64,000 nt of DNA from Kribbella pratensis (lineage in GTDB: Bacteria; Actinomycetota; Actinomycetes; Propionibacteriales; Kribbellaceae). Of the stretch, positions 29,715-51,716 are shown piece by piece; positions within the stretch are counted from its first letter, which is position 1, and every line of letters begins with the position of its first letter. The position numbers were made by a program, and so were the translations under genes. Under the pieces are notes generated by a model. That model made no database searches and had not been told where the DNA came from. It saw nothing but the letters and a program-made list of their open reading frames with translations. Location: NCBI RefSeq assembly GCF_004365355.1, contig NZ_SODP01000005.1, positions 62,001 through 126,000 of the forward strand. The letters are read 5' to 3'.

Positions 29715-30575
29715 GTGGATCTGCTCGACGAGCTCAGGACTCTGATCATTCGGCATACGGCCGGCCAGCGCGGGCACAGCGTGCACCTGATCGACGGGGT
29801 CCAGGTCAGCCGGCGCGACGAACCGACCGAGCTGACCGCGGGCATCGCCCAGCCGTCGGTCGCGATCGTTGCCTCAGGCGTCAAGCTGACGTTGCTCAAC
29901 GGCGTCCCCTACGAGTACGGCGTCGGCCAGTTCCTGGTCACCTCGCTGGATCTCCCGGTCGTCGGCCAGGCGTTGAAGGCGACGCCGGACGAACCGTTCG
30001 CCGTCGTCAGCCTGCGACTCGATCCGGTCGAGATCGCTCCGTTGCTGCTCGACACCCCCGAGCGGAAGCCGCAGTACGCCGGTCTCGTGGTGAGCGATGC
30101 GACACCTGACTTGCTCGATCCCGTCGTCCGGCTGTTGCGGATCGCCGGCCGCCCGGACGACGTACGGGTGCTTGCGCCGGGCATCCGGCGGGAGATCCTG
30201 TGGCGGCTGCTGACCGGTGAACAGGGCGGACTGGTCCGGCAGATCGGTCTGGCCGATGGAATGCTGGCGCACATCTCTCGAGCGATCAGCTGGATCCGCC
30301 GCCACCACAACGAACCTCTTCTGGTCGCGGACCTCGCCGAACTGGCCGGCATGAGCCCGTCGACGTTCCACCGGCATTTCCGCGCGGCGACCTCGATGAC
30401 ACCGATCCAGTTCCAGAAACAGATCCGTCTGCAGGAGGCCAGGGTCCTGCTCCGCACGCAGTCCCTCACCGCGGCAGAGGTCGGCTTCCAGGTCGGCTAC
30501 ACCAGCTCCGCCCACTTCACCCGGACCTACCATCAGGCGTTCGGCCGGACACCGGGCGAGGACCGGAGCGCCTGA
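29715..30575 (+). CDS. AraC-family transcriptional regulator
   Basis: 286 residues. The N-terminal 170 residues are an AraC_N (cupin-like) domain beginning HSVHLIDGVQVSRRDEPTE. The C-terminal pair of helix-turn-helices (about 185-282) includes LVADLAELAGMSPSTFHRHFRAATSMTP region and AAEVGFQVGYTSSAHFTRTYHQAFGRTP region. It probably activates the divergent aldo/keto reductase gene. GTG 29715 follows GGAGAG. The last 59 bp overlap the convergent DUF1365-CFAS gene. Confidence 0.9.
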   Translation: MDLLDELRTLIIRHTAGQRGHSVHLIDGVQVSRRDEPTELTAGIAQPSVAIVASGVKLTLLNGVPYEYGVGQFLVTSLDLPVVGQALKATPDEPFAVVSLRLDPVEIAPLLLDTPERKPQYAGLVVSDATPDLLDPVVRLLRIAGRPDDVRVLAPGIRREILWRLLTGEQGGLVRQIGLADGMLAHISRAISWIRRHHNEPLLVADLAELAGMSPSTFHRHFRAATSMTPIQFQKQIRLQEARVLLRTQSLTAAEVGFQVGYTSSAHFTRTYHQAFGRTPGEDRSA

Positions 30576-32448
30576 GCAGCAACTGGCCCACGTCGAGATA
30601 GCCGGAAGCGAACCCGGCCTCACTGTAGGCCAGATAGAACTCCCACGTACGCCGGAAGCTCTCGTCGAACCCCTGCGCGCGGATGACCGGCCAGTTCGCG
30701 GTGAACTGCCGCCGCCAGCGGCGCAGCGTCTCGGCATAGTCCGGACCGAACCGATGATCGGCCTGCACCACCAGCTTGGTGTGGCGGGCCAGCGTCTCGT
30801 CGATCGCGGTCCGGGACGGGATCAGGCCGCCCGGGAAGATGTACTTCTGGATCCAGCTGTACGAGTTCCGGGTCGCGAGCATCCGGTCGTGGTCCATCAG
30901 AATCGCCTGCAGTGCAACGGATCCGCCGGGTGCCAGCAGCCGGTCGAGCGTGCCGAAGTACTCCGGCCAGAACTCCTCGCCGACGGCCTCGATCATCTCC
31001 ACGCTGACGATCACGTCGTACGAACCGGTGACCGCGCGATAGTCCTGCAACCGCAGGTCGACGCGATCGCTCAGCCCGGCGTCGGCGACCCGCTCGCGCG
31101 CAAGTGTCAGCTGCTCGCTGGACAACGTGATGCCGGTGACGTGGGCGCCACGGCGTGCGGCGGCGATCGCGAGCGTGCCCCAGCCGATGCCGATCTCGAG
31201 CACCTGACTGCCTCGCCGGACCCCGGCCAGATCGAGGATGCGCTCCACCTTGCGCGTCTGGGCGTCCTCCAGGGACTGCCCGGCGCTCTCGAACATGGCT
31301 GAGCTGTACGACATCCCGGGGTCCAGGAAGGCCGCGAACAAGGCGTTGCTGAGGTCGTAGTGCGCCCTGATGTTGCTGCGGGCACCATTCGGGGTGTTGC
31401 GCAGCCGATCGGGGACGCGCTGCTCGACCAGCCGACGGAAGCGCTGCATCCAGTGCGGCACGAGCTGAGCGAGCTGCGCGGCGAACGGGGTGAGCAGTTC
31501 GCCGAGGTCCGTGCCGTCGGCGGCTGTCCAGTCGCCTGCCGTATAGGCCTCGCCGAGACCGATCTTCGGGTTGTGCGCGAGCCGCTCGAACATCGCGTCA
31601 GGCCGGGCGATCCGCAGCGTCGGCGCGTCCGGGCCACCGCCGCCGCGGACGGAACCGTCCGGGTAGACCGCACGGACCGGCACGCGGTCGAGCACGCGGT
31701 CGACGATCATCCGGGCAGCGCGGCCACGCAAGGTCTTCCGCGTCTTCCGCTTCACGACCGGCAGGCGTCGCGCCCACAGGTACAAGCCGTGCACCCGGAT
31801 CAGTGCCGACACCCGCTGCGGCATGAGTGGCATCCGTACGGCGGCCGCGAGCACCGCGCGGCGAGTGGCCGGTCGCGGTACGCCTTCGAAGCTCGCACCG
31901 AAGACCGTGTGGTGGCCGCGGGACAGACTGACCTGGACCCGCACCCGGCTGCGATCGAGCTCGAACCGGAGTCGGTAGTCGCCGGACACGTCGTTGAACG
32001 GCGAGACGTAGAACTTCTTCGCAGTCTCGGCATTGCCGTGCGCATCCGGCGTGAGCAGGTACGTGTGCCGTTCGCCGTACGTGTTGTGTACCTCGGCGAC
32101 GACGTATGGGCTGTCGATGCACCAGAACACGGTGATCGGGTCGAAGACGTGGCCAAGTACGCGGGCGTTGGACAGCATCACGATCCGGCCGTCGTACTCG
32201 ATGCCCTGCTCGGCCAGGTACCGGCGTACACCGGCTTTGATCGTCGGACCGTCGCCGCCCAGATGATCGCGTACGTCGAACCCGCCGAACGGCCGCAGGT
32301 ACCAGGGCAGGCGCGGCAGGTCGTCGAGGTCGACGAGCCATTGGTAGACCCGGTGCCGGAACGCGTGCCGGATCGGGATCGACCGGGCGTGCCGGACGAA
32401 GCCGGTGACGACCGCCGGAAGGGTGGGGAACTCACCGACGACCGTCAC
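30517..32448 (-). CDS. DUF1365 - cyclopropane-fatty-acyl-phospholipid synthase fusion
   Basis: 643 residues. Residues about 10-215 are DUF1365: VFDPITVFWC (101-110), EVHNTYGERHTYLL and KKFYVSPFND. Residues about 260-625 are a CFA-type SAM methyltransferase: HYDLSNALFAAFLDPGMSYS (363-382) is the CFAS signature and VLEIGIGWG (416-424) the SAM motif. The enzyme part transfers a methyl group onto unsaturated acyl chains of membrane lipids. DUF1365 proteins commonly accompany cfa genes as separate proteins; here the two are one chain. GTG 32448 overlaps the FAD oxidoreductase stop by 4 nt. Expression is probably controlled by the CarH-like repressor. Confidence 0.9.
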   Translation of the reverse strand: MTVVGEFPTLPAVVTGFVRHARSIPIRHAFRHRVYQWLVDLDDLPRLPWYLRPFGGFDVRDHLGGDGPTIKAGVRRYLAEQGIEYDGRIVMLSNARVLGHVFDPITVFWCIDSPYVVAEVHNTYGERHTYLLTPDAHGNAETAKKFYVSPFNDVSGDYRLRFELDRSRVRVQVSLSRGHHTVFGASFEGVPRPATRRAVLAAAVRMPLMPQRVSALIRVHGLYLWARRLPVVKRKTRKTLRGRAARMIVDRVLDRVPVRAVYPDGSVRGGGGPDAPTLRIARPDAMFERLAHNPKIGLGEAYTAGDWTAADGTDLGELLTPFAAQLAQLVPHWMQRFRRLVEQRVPDRLRNTPNGARSNIRAHYDLSNALFAAFLDPGMSYSSAMFESAGQSLEDAQTRKVERILDLAGVRRGSQVLEIGIGWGTLAIAAARRGAHVTGITLSSEQLTLARERVADAGLSDRVDLRLQDYRAVTGSYDVIVSVEMIEAVGEEFWPEYFGTLDRLLAPGGSVALQAILMDHDRMLATRNSYSWIQKYIFPGGLIPSRTAIDETLARHTKLVVQADHRFGPDYAETLRRWRRQFTANWPVIRAQGFDESFRRTWEFYLAYSEAGFASGYLDVGQLLLRRSGPRPVSGRTPDGRSG

Positions 32449-33692
32449 CAGCGCACCCCGAAGGACTCCGCCGCCGCGACCCCGGCGCGACAGCCGTCCT
32501 CATGGAAGCCCCAGCCGTGATACGCCCCCGCGAATGCGACCCGGCCGGTGTTCAACTCCGCCAGCCGGCTCTGCGCGGCCACCGCCGTCGGGGTGTAGAT
32601 CGGGTGCTCGTACTCCATCCGCGCGATCACCTTCGCCGGATCGACCGCCTCGGCACCGTTCAGCGTGACCAGGTATGTCTCCTCGGTCTCGAGGCCCTGC
32701 AACCGATTCATCCAGTACGTCGTGAGCGGCGCGTCGTCGCGGACGACGTAGTTCCAGCAGGCGCGGGCGTTCTTCGTTGCAGGTAGCAACGATGAGTCGG
32801 TGTGCAGGACGGTCTCGTTCCGGCTGTACTCGAACTGTCCGAGCACCGCCTTCTCCGCAGGCGTCGCGTCCGTGAGCAGGTCGAGCGCCTGATCGGCATG
32901 CGTCGCCAGCACGACCCGGTCGAAGTCCCTTGTGTTGCCGTTGGCAACGGTTGCCGTCACGCCGTCGGGGTGGCGATGTACAGCCTGGACAGGAAGTCCG
33001 GTCCGGATCGCATCCAGCCGCGCGGCGAGGGCATCGACGTACTGCCGGGAGCCGCCGGTGACGGTCAGCCACTGCGGCGAGCCGCTCACCGAGAGCATCC
33101 CGTGGTGGTCGAGGAACCGGAACAGGTACCGCGCCGGGTAGCTGAGGGCCGAGCCGCCGCCGCAGGACCAGACGCAGGAGACGACGGGGACGGCGTACAA
33201 GCGGATGAAGGCCGGGCTGAAACGCTCTGCCTCGAGGAACTCGCCGAAGGTCGCGAGATCGTCGTCGCCGGTCCGCTCGACGTAGGCGGCGGCGCTGCGG
33301 TGGAAGCGGCGTACCTCGGTCAGCAGGCGGAGGAAGCGTGGGTCCGACAGGCGGCGGCTCTGGGCGAAGACGCCGGTCAGCCCGCGACCGCCGGCGAACT
33401 CCAGGCCGGTGGCCGGGTCGCTGATGCTCATGCTCATCTCGGTCGGTCGCGTCAGTACGCCGAGCTCCGCGAACAGCCGGCGGAGCAGGGGATAGGTACG
33501 GGCGTTGTGCACGATGAAGCCGGTGTCGATCGAAAGCGGGCGGCCGGCGGGGTCGGTGACGTCGTGGGTGTGGGCGTGCCCGCCCAGCCGCGGTTCGGCT
33601 TCGAACAGCGTCACGTCGTACCCAGGGGTCAGTAGATACGCGGCGGTCAGGCCGGACACTCCGGCGCCGACCACGGCCACGGTCTCTCGCAT
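32445..33692 (-). CDS. FAD-dependent oxidoreductase (flavin amine-oxidase type, CFA-associated)
   Basis: 415 residues. VAVVGAGVSGLTAAYLL (5-21) and LFEAEPRLGGHAHT bind FAD. IDTGFIVHNARTYPLLRRLF, VPVVSCVWSC and TYWMNRLQGLE are blocks of the flavoprotein family encoded with DUF1365 and cfa-like genes. It probably acts on phospholipid acyl chains (desaturation or oxidation) before or after methylation; related genes in proteobacteria belong to singlet-oxygen and furan-fatty-acid systems. ATG 33692 follows GAGG. Its promoter (-35 TTGACA, -10 TAATCT) is overlaid by the 11-bp repeats. Confidence 0.88.
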   Translation of the reverse strand: MRETVAVVGAGVSGLTAAYLLTPGYDVTLFEAEPRLGGHAHTHDVTDPAGRPLSIDTGFIVHNARTYPLLRRLFAELGVLTRPTEMSMSISDPATGLEFAGGRGLTGVFAQSRRLSDPRFLRLLTEVRRFHRSAAAYVERTGDDDLATFGEFLEAERFSPAFIRLYAVPVVSCVWSCGGGSALSYPARYLFRFLDHHGMLSVSGSPQWLTVTGGSRQYVDALAARLDAIRTGLPVQAVHRHPDGVTATVANGNTRDFDRVVLATHADQALDLLTDATPAEKAVLGQFEYSRNETVLHTDSSLLPATKNARACWNYVVRDDAPLTTYWMNRLQGLETEETYLVTLNGAEAVDPAKVIARMEYEHPIYTPTAVAAQSRLAELNTGRVAFAGAYHGWGFHEDGCRAGVAAAESFGVRW

Positions 33693-33708
33693 CGGCGGTA
33701 CCTCACAT

Positions 33709-33730
33709 CTTTGTCTAAGGTTTGTCTAGA
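33709..33730. promoter_or_regulatory. Two-site CarH-type operator on the FAD oxidoreductase promoter
   Basis: CTTTGTCTAAG (33709-33719) and GTTTGTCTAGA (33720-33730) are contiguous 11-bp direct repeats. Read on the minus strand both fit nnTnnACAnnn, the head-to-tail operator unit described for Thermus CarH. They cover the end of the -10 and the likely start site of the minus-strand operon. Confidence 0.8.
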
Positions 33731-33759
33731 GATTAGGCAGGTCGCCTCGGACTTGTCAA
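33730..33759 (-). promoter_or_regulatory. Sigma-70 type promoter of the FAD oxidoreductase / DUF1365-CFAS operon
   Basis: On the minus strand, TTGACA (33759-33754) and TAATCT (33735-33730) are separated by 18 nt, close to consensus for the primary sigma factor. The expected start is near 33723, leaving a leader of about 30 nt with GAGG before ATG 33692. Confidence 0.75.
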
Positions 33760-33783
33760 AGGACTGTCTAGAGTTTGTATAGT
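33751..33783. promoter_or_regulatory. Three-site CarH-type operator overlapping the carH promoter
   Basis: ACTTGTCAAAG (33751-33761), GACTGTCTAGA (33762-33772) and GTTTGTATAGT (33773-33783) are three contiguous 11-bp direct repeats, all fitting nnTnnACAnnn on the minus strand. They run exactly from the plus-strand -35 (TTGTCA, 33753-33758) to its -10 (TATAGT, 33778-33783) and also cover the -35 of the opposite promoter. The GTG of carH follows 6 nt after the -10, so its mRNA is probably leaderless. Confidence 0.85.
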
Positions 33784-33789
33784 GTCCTT

Positions 33790-34668
33790 GTGGAGACTTC
33801 GGTGCCCGGCGGTCTGCGGATCGGTGCGTTGAGCAAGCGCGCCGGCGTCAGTGAGCACGTCCTCCGTGCCTGGGAGACCAGGTACGGGCTGCTGTCGCCG
33901 ACCCGTTCGGCCGGCGGCTACCGGCTGTACTCGGAGAGCGACGTACGCCGGGTGCAGCGCATGCGGGCCTTCCTCGCCCAGGGACTGTCCGCGGCCGAGG
34001 CGGCGCGCGCCGTGCTGGCCGAACGCTCGACCTTGGCTGCCGACCCGGTCTCCGTACGCAAGGCCGAGGCCGGCGGCGTAGCCAACCTGAGAGCGGCGCT
34101 GGACGAGTTGGACGAGCGGGCGGCGCACCACGTGCTGGACGAACTGTTCGGCGCGCTGACCATCGAGGCTGTCATCCGGGACGTGCTGATTCCTTACCTG
34201 CACGACCTGGGTGACCGATGGGGCCGGGGAGAGGTGAGCGTCGGGCAGGAGCACTTCGCCAGCAACCTGATCCGGTCCCGGCTCGCGGGCCTGGCTCCTG
34301 GGTGGGGTGGGGGCCAGGGTCCGCGGGCGCTACTGGCGTGTCCGCCCGGTGAGCTACACGACATCGCTCTGCTGTCCTTCGGACTGGTACTGCGGCGGTC
34401 CGGCTGGCGGGTGATCTACCTCGGTGCGGATTCGCCGATGGCCGATGTGGAACACGCCGCCACGGTGCTCGGACCTGAGCTGGTGATGCTGTCCGCGTCC
34501 GACTCCGCACGCTTCGACTCTGTCCACCCCCAACTCGTCCGGCTGGCGCAAACCACGTCCCTTGCGCTGGCCGGACCAGGCGCCTCCTCCGAGCTTGCGG
34601 CTGCCGTCGGTGCGCAGTACGTCGACGGCGACCCGGTGACCGCTGCCGAGCAATGGACCAACCGATGA
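33790..34668 (+). CDS. carH: CarH/LitR-type MerR repressor with cobalamin-binding photoreceptor domain
   Basis: 292 residues. A MerR winged helix occupies 9-75 (IGALSKRAGVSEHVLRAWET, GGYRLYSESDVRRV). The helical bundle and Rossmann B12 domain follow (95-290). The CarH fingerprint W-x9-E-H is present as W144, E154, H155, and H190 (ELHDIALL) lies 46 residues after W144, the same spacing as the Co-binding H177 and W131 in Thermus CarH. In such proteins adenosylcobalamin drives a DNA-binding tetramer in the dark, and light breaks it. Residue 145 is Gly where Thermus CarH has His132, the second ligand of the light state. It probably represses both flanking operons. Confidence 0.9.
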   Translation: METSVPGGLRIGALSKRAGVSEHVLRAWETRYGLLSPTRSAGGYRLYSESDVRRVQRMRAFLAQGLSAAEAARAVLAERSTLAADPVSVRKAEAGGVANLRAALDELDERAAHHVLDELFGALTIEAVIRDVLIPYLHDLGDRWGRGEVSVGQEHFASNLIRSRLAGLAPGWGGGQGPRALLACPPGELHDIALLSFGLVLRRSGWRVIYLGADSPMADVEHAATVLGPELVMLSASDSARFDSVHPQLVRLAQTTSLALAGPGASSELAAAVGAQYVDGDPVTAAEQWTNR

Positions 34669-36137
34669 GCCGGGTTCTCGTGACCGGAGCGACCGGCTAC
34701 ATCGGCGGCCGGCTGGTGCCGGAGCTGCTCGCCGCGGGGTACGACGTCCGCGTTCTGGCCCGGAATCCGCAGCGGCTCGACGGGCGTCCGTGGCGGAGCC
34801 GGATCGACGTGGTCGAGGGTGATGCCTCCGACCCGGCCGTGCTGACCAGGGCACTGGACTGCGTCGACGTCGCGTACTACCTGATCCACTCGATGGGCAC
34901 CGGCCGGCGGTTCGAGGAGCGCGACCGGCGTACGGCGCTGGCGTTCGGCGCGGCCAGCCGCGAGTCCGGTGTCGGGCGGATCGTGTACTTGGGCGGTCTG
35001 CACCCCGAGGGCGAGGAGTTGTCGCCGCATCTGGGCTCTCGCCGTGAGGTGGGAGAGATCCTCCTGGCCAGCGGCGTACCGACGACAGTGCTGCAGGCGG
35101 CGGTGATCATCGGCTCCGGGTCCGCCTCGTTCGAGATGCTGCGCTACCTGACCGAGCGGCTGCCGGTGATGGTGACGCCGCGCTGGCTGGACACGCGGAT
35201 CCAGCCGATCGCGGTTCGCGACGTACTGCACTACCTCGTCGGATCCGCCCGGATGCCGATCGAGGTGAACCAGGGCTTCGACATCGGTGGACCGGACGTG
35301 CTGACGTACCGCGCGATGATGCAGCGGTACGCCGCCGTTGCGGGCCTGCGTCCGCGCCGGATCAGGACGGTGCCGTTGCTGACTCCCAGCCTGTCCAGTC
35401 ATTGGGTCGGTCTGGTCACGCCGGTGCCTAGTGGCATCGCACGGCCGCTGGTCGACAGCCTGGTGCACGAGGTCGTCTGCAAGAACCACGACATCGACAA
35501 GTACGTCGAGCCGCGTCCGTCCGGCGGGATCGGGTTCGACCGCGCGGTCGCGCTCGCACTGAAGAAGGTGCACGACCTGGACGTCAGTACGTCGTGGGCG
35601 TCCGCTTCGACACTCGGTGCGCCGAGCGATCCGTTGCCGAGCGACCCGGACTGGTCGGGCGGCTCGCTGTACGTCGACGAACGCGACTGTGCGGTCGATG
35701 CGTCACCGGAGCGGCTCTGGAAGGTCATCGAGGGCATCGGGGGTCGCCGCGGCTGGTACTCGTGGCGCCTGGGCTGGTGGACCCGCGGACTGCTCGACCG
35801 GATCGTCGGTGGGCCCGGGCTGCGGCGCGGCCGGTTGCACCCGGACACGTTGTCGGTCGGCGATCCGCTCGACTGGTGGCGGGTCGAGACGCTCGAGCGC
35901 GGCCGGTTGCTGCGGCTGCGCGCCGAGATGCGGTTGCCGGGGGAGGCCTGGCTCGAGCTGCGGGCCGGGACCGACGAACACGGACGCACGCTGTTCCGGC
36001 AGCGCGCGCTGTTCCATCCCCGGGGTCTGCTCGGGGAGCTGTACTGGGCGGCCATCCGGCCGTTCCACGACGTCGTCTTCGGCGGCATGCAGCGCAACAT
36101 CGCGCACGCCGCCGAACGAGCCGAGGAGGCCCGATGA
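34665..36137 (+). CDS. NAD(P)-binding SDR with C-terminal DUF2867
   Basis: 490 residues. Residues about 1-310 are an atypical extended SDR: VLVTGATGYIGGRLVPELL, then VVEGDASDP, and YYLIHSMGTG. The C-terminal about 330-480 is DUF2867, a START-like domain: YSWRLGWWTRGLLDRIVGGPG is its usual WG/LRRGR block. Such proteins recur beside LitR/CarH regulators; the substrate is unknown but a hydrophobic lipid or isoprenoid fits the START-like fold. ATG 34665 overlaps the carH stop (ATGA). Confidence 0.88.
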   Translation: MSRVLVTGATGYIGGRLVPELLAAGYDVRVLARNPQRLDGRPWRSRIDVVEGDASDPAVLTRALDCVDVAYYLIHSMGTGRRFEERDRRTALAFGAASRESGVGRIVYLGGLHPEGEELSPHLGSRREVGEILLASGVPTTVLQAAVIIGSGSASFEMLRYLTERLPVMVTPRWLDTRIQPIAVRDVLHYLVGSARMPIEVNQGFDIGGPDVLTYRAMMQRYAAVAGLRPRRIRTVPLLTPSLSSHWVGLVTPVPSGIARPLVDSLVHEVVCKNHDIDKYVEPRPSGGIGFDRAVALALKKVHDLDVSTSWASASTLGAPSDPLPSDPDWSGGSLYVDERDCAVDASPERLWKVIEGIGGRRGWYSWRLGWWTRGLLDRIVGGPGLRRGRLHPDTLSVGDPLDWWRVETLERGRLLRLRAEMRLPGEAWLELRAGTDEHGRTLFRQRALFHPRGLLGELYWAAIRPFHDVVFGGMQRNIAHAAERAEEAR

Positions 36138-36571
36138 TCGTCATCGAACGTGAAGTGGTCGTCGCAGCCGATCCCGGGCGGGTCTTCGACTACCTCGCCG
36201 ACTTCCGCAGTACGGAGGAATGGGATCCCGGCACGGTCCGGACCGTGCTGCTGCAGGGCGACGGCGGAATCGGTACGACGTACCGCAACACCTCACGCTT
36301 CGCCGGCCGGGAGACCGAGCTGATCTACGAGGTCGTGGAACGCATTCGGCCGGATCGCATCGTTCTGCGGGGTGAGAACCGCACAGTCGTTGCCCACGAC
36401 ACCATGTCGTTCAGCACCGATGCGCACCTCACCCGGGTCACCTATCGCGCCGAGTTCCAGCTCAAAGGCCTGGCCCGGTTGGCGGAACCCTTCTTCCGCA
36501 AGCCGTTCGACCGGCTCGGTGAGGAAGCCGAGCAGGGGCTGCGCGACGCTTTGGGGAAGCTGGCGGCATGA
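36134..36571 (+). CDS. SRPBCC/START-like ligand-binding protein
   Basis: 145 residues. VIEREVVVAADPGRVFDYLA at the N terminus and the long C-terminal helix PFFRKPFDRLGEEAEQGLRD are the ends of a Bet v1-like SRPBCC fold, a hydrophobic cavity for small lipophilic molecules. It overlaps both neighbours by 4 nt (ATGA on each side), so it is made in step with the two SDR proteins and may deliver or hold their substrate. No catalytic residues are recognised. Confidence 0.85.
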   Translation: MIVIEREVVVAADPGRVFDYLADFRSTEEWDPGTVRTVLLQGDGGIGTTYRNTSRFAGRETELIYEVVERIRPDRIVLRGENRTVVAHDTMSFSTDAHLTRVTYRAEFQLKGLARLAEPFFRKPFDRLGEEAEQGLRDALGKLAA

Positions 36572-37506
36572 GCATGCTGGATACGCTCCTGGACCGGACG
36601 GTCATCCCTGGCTACAGCAAGCTGGGCTATCGGCTCCGCAGGCGGAACTGGCCCGACAACGACCCCGCACGCGACGCCCTGCAAGGCAAGACTGTCGTGG
36701 TCACCGGTGCGCGCAGCGGGCTGGGCAAAGCCACCGCATCCGGACTCGCCGGGCTGGGCGCCACCGTCCACCTCGTGGTCCGCGACGCCGGCAAGGCTGC
36801 CGGTGCGGTCGCGGATCTGCGCGGTGAGGTCCCCGACGCCAGGTTTGTGGTCGACGAGTGCGACATCTCCGACCTGGACGCCGTACGCCGCTATGCCGGC
36901 GGACTGAGCGAGCCGATCCACGCGCTGATCCACAACGCCGGCGTCATGCCGCCGAAGCGCACCGAATCACCCCAGGGCCACGAGCTGACGCTGGCCACCC
37001 ACGTGCTCGGTCCGCTCCTGCTGACAGAGCTCTTGAAACCCCTGCTGGTGAACGGCCGCGTCGTCTTCGTCGCATCCGGAGGCATGTACACGCAGCAGCT
37101 GCCGACCGACGATCCGGAGTACCGCCACGGCACCTACCGAGGTGCGACCGCCTATGCGCGGTCCAAACGCATCCAGGTAGCACTGACCCCACTCCTGGCC
37201 ACCGAGCTGGCCCCCACCTTCGTAGCCACCATGCACCCCGGCTGGTCCGAAACCCCAGGCCTGACGGATTCCCTCCCAGGCTTCACCCGCCTGACGAAGC
37301 ACCTGCTGCGAACACCAGCCGAAGGAGCCGACACCACCATCTGGCTGGCAGCCACCGAACCAAAACCCCCCACAGGCCAGTTCTGGCACGACCGCGAACC
37401 CCGCCCCACCCACTACCTCACCCGAACCCAGGAATCCGACGGCGACCGCCGCAAGATCTGGGCTTACTGCCGAGCAGCCGCAGGCATCCAGCCTGAAGCT
37501 GGGTGA
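36568..37506 (+). CDS. SDR-family oxidoreductase (retinol-dehydrogenase-like)
   Basis: 312 residues. VVVTGARSGLGKATASGLAG binds NAD(P), HNAG is at about 125, a Ser in VASGGMY and YARSK give the catalytic set, and HPGWSETPG follows as in retinol dehydrogenase/DHRS-like SDRs. An N-terminal extension of about 40 residues (LLDRTVIPGYSKLGYRLRRR) precedes the fold and may dock at membranes. It is the last gene of the carH operon, with ATGA overlap. Lipophilic alcohol or ketone substrates are plausible. Confidence 0.88.
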   Translation: MSMLDTLLDRTVIPGYSKLGYRLRRRNWPDNDPARDALQGKTVVVTGARSGLGKATASGLAGLGATVHLVVRDAGKAAGAVADLRGEVPDARFVVDECDISDLDAVRRYAGGLSEPIHALIHNAGVMPPKRTESPQGHELTLATHVLGPLLLTELLKPLLVNGRVVFVASGGMYTQQLPTDDPEYRHGTYRGATAYARSKRIQVALTPLLATELAPTFVATMHPGWSETPGLTDSLPGFTRLTKHLLRTPAEGADTTIWLAATEPKPPTGQFWHDREPRPTHYLTRTQESDGDRRKIWAYCRAAAGIQPEAG

Positions 37507-51608: not shown

Positions 51609-51716
51609 CCCGGATTTCCGCCGGATCGGCGGGTCGTGGCACACTAGATGGTCGGTTCCGGTTCACGTTCACACCGTGTGGACGACCCGGGGCACCTGAT
51701 TCCTAGGAGACCTGTT

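Follow-up and report, generated by a model that had tools for sequence, protein, structure and literature searches.

The 64-kb stretch of DNA that we analysed (the window), from a Kribbella genome of 8.37 Mb, contains a 97-bp intergenic gap (33693–33789) between an FAD oxidase gene on the minus strand and a MerR/B12 gene, carH, on the plus strand (Table 1). Five 11-bp repeats lie in this gap, all reading nnnTGTnnAnn on the plus strand, that is nnTnnACAnnn on the minus strand. They form a two-site and a three-site block, each in exact 11-bp register, with 20 bp between the repeats of the two blocks; the interruption consists of the -10 and spacer of the opposite promoter. An earlier sequence-only reading had placed five 11-bp sites in blocks of two and three at these positions, with which the sequence agrees exactly, and had called them CarH-type, as borne out by their match to the published 11-bp TnnACA consensus. 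Its 97-bp length for the gap holds given a GTG start of carH at 33790, a start supported by ATG at that position in relatives; an earlier TTG start codon is ruled out by a 2-bp insertion just upstream of 33790 in some relatives.

Table 1. Features at the carH locus and elsewhere in the window
Feature	Position	Strand	Remarks
Repeat 1, CarH-type	33709–33719	-	CTTTGTCTAAG; core TAGACA on minus strand; leader of left operon; core nearly invariant in 13 Kribbella promoters
Repeat 2, CarH-type	33720–33730	-	GTTTGTCTAGA; core TAGACA; over the putative left start, abuts left -10; 4/4 core bases invariant
Repeat 3, CarH-type	33751–33761	-	ACTTGTCAAAG; core TTGACA; contains left -35, overlaps carH -35; TTGACG/T in relatives
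Repeat 4, CarH-type	33762–33772	-	GACTGTCTAGA; core TAGACA; within carH spacer; core invariant
Repeat 5, CarH-type	33773–33783	-	GTTTGTATAGT; core TATACA; coincides with carH -10; core invariant
Left (oxidase) -35, TTGACA	33754–33759	-	TTGAC invariant; inside repeat 3
Left (oxidase) -10, TAATCT	33730–33735	-	Invariant in 13 Kribbella promoters; 17–18 bp from TTGACN in relatives
carH -35, TTGTCA, putative	33753–33758	+	Weak; 19-bp spacer; inferred from sequence
carH -10, TATAGT	33778–33783	+	6 nt before start codon; TAnnnT + 6–8 nt + ATG/GTG in relatives
carH	33790–34668	+	GTG start; MerR HTH, B12-binding_2 and B12-binding
NAD(P)-binding/NmrA + DUF2867 protein	34653–36137	+	Overlaps carH; conserved at Kribbella carH loci
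Polyketide_cyc2/SRPBCC protein	36134–36571	+	Overlapping start; domain match
Short-chain dehydrogenase	36568–37506	+	Overlapping start; domain match
FAD-dependent amine-oxidase-family protein, UfaD-like candidate	32445–33692	-	Domain match; homologues in relatives
DUF1365-CMAS fusion, UfaO-like + UfaM/Cfa-like	30517–32448	-	Domain match; separate frames in most relatives
L31-Actinobacteria ribosomal protein leader	51652–51696		

A promoter scanner found no consensus sigma-70 promoter, so the promoter assignments rest on conservation. The left promoter has an 18-bp spacer between TTGACA and TAATCT here, and its transcripts would start at about 33723. The carH mRNA is probably leaderless, since the layout from -10 to start codon is kept in relatives with either ATG or GTG. 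Repeats 3–5 overlay the -35 and -10 of carH together with the opposite -35, just as the sequence-only reading had it. Its placing of the two-site block over the opposite -10 and start stands for the predicted start (~33723), while the -10 (33735–33730) is abutted, with a 1-bp overlap, and not covered.

The carH product matches Pfam MerR_1, B12-binding_2 and B12-binding, and combines an N-terminal MerR helix-turn-helix with four-helix and Rossmann B12 domains. Its best solved relatives are the Thermus CarH structures 3whp/5c8d (E ~1e-33; residues 10–286 aligned to 5c8d). The AdoCbl signature of class I LitR/CarH proteins, GxxW, EH, GxxH and GxxxP (PMC11796333), is complete in the translation as GDRW, EH, GELH and GADSP, which includes Wx9EH and the base-off His (GELH). 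The host genome also encodes a cobalamin adenosyltransferase. The domains, structural matches and motifs confirm the earlier assignment of the regulator to the CarH type. We call it a CarH homologue rather than a proven equivalog because the NCBIfam equivalog NF052513, by far the best family match, scored 171.8 against a 400-bit cut-off. A MerR homologue at C1:3414198 was rejected as a second CarH, being without the EH motif. The MerR-B12-like protein at L062:2621–3502, the second in its genome, has no EH motif.

The light step is less certain without an equivalent of Thermus His132. The residue after the Trp of Wx9EH, at the Thermus H132 position, is Gly here, and His was absent from this position in every actinobacterial CarH locus where it was read. 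In Thermus, CarH H132A is largely tetrameric in the light, His132 being needed for full light-driven disassembly (PMC10442372), and it may be that the Kribbella protein binds constitutively, or senses AdoCbl level or redox instead of light, the locus then responding to B12 or oxidative stress. We regard this as unlikely, given that the adenosyl-contacting W, E and H and the base-off His are all present, that CtMerR has Arg for this His yet responds to light (PMC11796333), and that photolyase or heliorhodopsin genes adjoin carH in relatives. The residue at the H132 position is variable among proven photoreceptors, so His132 is not strictly class-defining (PMC11796333).

Among 13 Kribbella promoters, 18 of the 20 core bases (four per site, five sites) do not vary, compared with 11 of the 64 intergenic positions outside cores and promoter elements (Fisher p 5e-9), and for repeats 1–2 alone the figures are 7/8 against 2/31 in the adjoining flanks (p 2e-5); the species are related, so these p-values overstate independence. 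Repeat 3, which doubles as the left -35, is kept just in part as a CarH repeat. Stronger evidence than the Kribbella p-values comes from the recurrence of the 2 + 3 layout in Actinoplanes and other distant Actinomycetota, where the flanks can no longer be aligned and DUF378 sometimes takes the place of the oxidase as divergent gene. The alignment of relatives that the sequence-only reading had proposed as a check therefore shows 11-bp spacing and cores conserved, in Kribbella and, as the 2 + 3 layout, well beyond it. A conserved split CarH operator across two divergent promoters is well supported at the sequence level. The regulator itself is patchy across the genus, as a search of 58 genomes gave carH in 14, all in Kribbella, and all ten Kribbella oxidases of at least 80% identity belong to genomes with carH.

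Repeats 2 and 3 are 31 bp apart in the window, TGT to TGT, which is about three helical turns and would put both blocks on one face; the Thermus tetramer engages just three of its four DNA-binding domains (PMC9304148). Both points favour a bridge of fixed geometry between the blocks, made by one CarH tetramer or by two linked through a loop. The inter-block distance is 30–31 bp at Kribbella oxidase loci but 35–36 bp at the other oxidase-linked loci in which it was measurable (L028, L030, L032, L049 and L050), half a turn apart, while the left -35/-10 spacer stays at 17–18 bp across both distance classes of oxidase-linked loci (at L012 the automatic choice took another hexamer; the aligned TAATCT is present there). 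What changes is the offset of the two-site block from the left -10 (7 vs 12), and distances at other loci vary more. A single rigid complex spanning the two blocks would hardly tolerate a half-turn (5-base) shift, which makes a bridge of fixed geometry improbable; a flexible linkage is possible. We propose instead that each block is anchored to its own promoter, and that the blocks need not share one DNA face. The sequence-only reading had left the choice between two oligomers and a looped one: two separately bound oligomers fit the spacing better, and a single oligomer looped or rigidly phased over both blocks is not supported, given the half-turn shift between lineages.

Under one scoring scheme, the two-site block was significant at 17 of 18 oxidase loci, 10 of 12 DUF378 loci (several of the positives with the block at a different offset) and 3 of 14 loci with other neighbours, counts that indicate a trend and not a measured rate, as these 14 were hand-picked and the scheme misplaces a few blocks. 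Those misplaced by the automatic block finder, at L020, L031, L063, L069 and L074, were read by eye. Only the carH-side repeats are present at L034, which adjoins rpsA. The distribution supports the view that the two-site block accompanies a real divergent target. From its position in the leader, past the left -10, this block could be a relic or a part of the left gene's mRNA leader, without any regulatory role and with the three-site block as sole operator. That is very unlikely, since the 11-bp core repeat of the block is kept despite unalignable flanks and before a different gene (DUF378), and since the pair is absent upstream of ~60%-identical oxidase homologues in carH-less genomes, a weaker control in that the homologues may be paralogues.

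The 64-kb window has 117 occurrences of TGTnnA on the plus strand and 112 on the minus strand. Besides the two blocks they form just one 11-bp chain, a minus-strand pair (offset 3536, reverse complement); no three-chain arose in 100,000 dinucleotide shuffles of 33693–33789. The relaxed triple YGTMNA-11-YGTMNA-11-YGTMNA has two matches in the 8.4-Mb genome, this locus and one of CGTCGA type, and 11 across the searched Kribbella genomes, all but 2 at carH. Triples being essentially confined to carH in Kribbella, a one-locus CarH regulon is likely, with the proviso that single or paired sites would escape a search for triples. Two further pairs, one at C1:131100 and one before a TetR-like gene (C3:778592), were set aside as candidate operators, both being two-repeat matches to a pattern about as frequent as its controls. 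A carotenoid target was rejected: the two SQS_PSY genes lie in tandem, an arrangement that suggests hopanoid HpnC/HpnD-like genes, and no triple repeat occurs elsewhere except the CGTCGA-type match.

The facts on published operators used here come from PMC9304148 and PMC8156234. As described there, CarH operators consist of 11-bp TnnACA repeats in tandem that overlap -35/-10 elements (PMC9304148), and that of Thermus thermophilus has three tandem direct repeats, one containing a -35 (PMC9304148 citing Jost 2015), in line with the earlier equation of a three-repeat array with the known Thermus site. Kribbella shares with T. thermophilus the 11-bp TnnACA direct repeats, a repeat containing a -35 and the CarH domains, but differs in its second, two-repeat block at the opposite start site, in a divergent target that seems to be a lipid-type operon rather than carotenoid genes, and in the missing light-state His132. 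Similarly, in the Bacillus megaterium and myxobacterial operators the number of direct repeats varies, some are degenerate, -35/-10 elements are overlapped and some operators govern divergent pairs, as predicted for Kribbella; however, those described in PMC9304148 are single contiguous arrays, whereas the opposite -10 and spacer break up the Kribbella array. Kribbella has the tandem 11-bp TnnACA repeats overlapping promoter elements, but in place of one unbroken run of three to five it has a conserved 2 + 3 split around the 20-bp gap.

The left operon combines domains of the UfaD, UfaO and UfaM types, and by this domain content it resembles the furan-fatty-acid ufaD-ufaO-ufaM set and not carotenoid genes, suggesting a lipid role or Ufa-like function. 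UfaD, UfaO (DUF1365) and UfaM are enough to make furan fatty acids in Rhodobacter (PMC7380195). As in Kribbella, the Rhodobacter sphaeroides set brings together an FAD-binding protein, a DUF1365 protein and a Cfa-type SAM methylase, but it is under ChrR and not under predicted CarH control (PMC7380195); in Kribbella the candidate enzymes DUF1365 and methylase are fused. The two form a single frame here and in L023, and give separate matches in L022 and L024–L028 (frames from match coordinates), with the pieces in different frames in L022; the fusion is probably recent. A MerR regulator near FAD-oxidoreductase, ufaM and SDR genes is also found with the class II LitR proteins of Pseudomonas (PmlR/PplR), in whose regulons these genes and photolyase genes are light-induced, ufaM lying beside LitR genes (PMC9758184). 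The class II proteins do not bind B12, have a LOV partner and recognise the consensus T(G/A)TACA, whereas the Kribbella protein has both B12 domains (PMC9758184). Among the papers searched we found none on CarH controlling Ufa-like genes in Actinomycetota, which is weak evidence of absence. Photolyase-like genes or matches adjoin carH at L032:4464–6245 and at L049, L030, L047, L048 and L071. In Actinoplanes subtropicus the gene after carH encodes a heliorhodopsin (L029:5093–5972); a two-repeat CarH-like site, TGTCGAAGCTATGTCTA, lies ~70 bp upstream of it, and CarH control of this gene is possible.

We give a probability of about 0.78 to the reading of the 97-bp gap as a split CarH/LitR-type (class I) operator over both divergent promoters, through which two oligomers repress both operons in the dark until released by light. 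We favour it because the repeats, as observed directly, are exact, conserved and overlap the promoters, and lie beside a protein with CarH domains and signature residues. On this split-operator reading, in which binding, its dependence on B12 and light, repression and the lipid product are what we infer, AdoCbl-bound CarH oligomers would in the dark occupy repeats 3–5, over both the -35 and -10 of carH and the -35 opposite, and a second oligomer would occupy repeats 1–2 over the opposite start site; the core promoter of the left operon would be closed off at its two ends, and carH would repress itself. Light would break the Co-C bond and release the oligomers, allowing transcription rightward of carH and three lipid/oxidoreductase-type genes, and leftward of the ufaD-ufaO-ufaM-like operon of oxidase and DUF1365-CMAS. 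A more speculative extension, which we hold only tentatively, is that Actinomycetota have a distinct split CarH operator bound by two independent oligomers of different sizes, that the light/AdoCbl threshold of the lipid operon differs from that of carH, and that the light state of CarH forms without bis-His ligation.

If the split-operator reading is true, the B12 light switch would extend, in soil actinobacteria, from carotenoids to genes for membrane lipids, possibly furan fatty acids. With its natural variation in block spacing, the conserved operator would help in asking how CarH oligomers count their sites and set the distances between them, and the missing light-state histidine would be a natural test of the necessity of that ligand.
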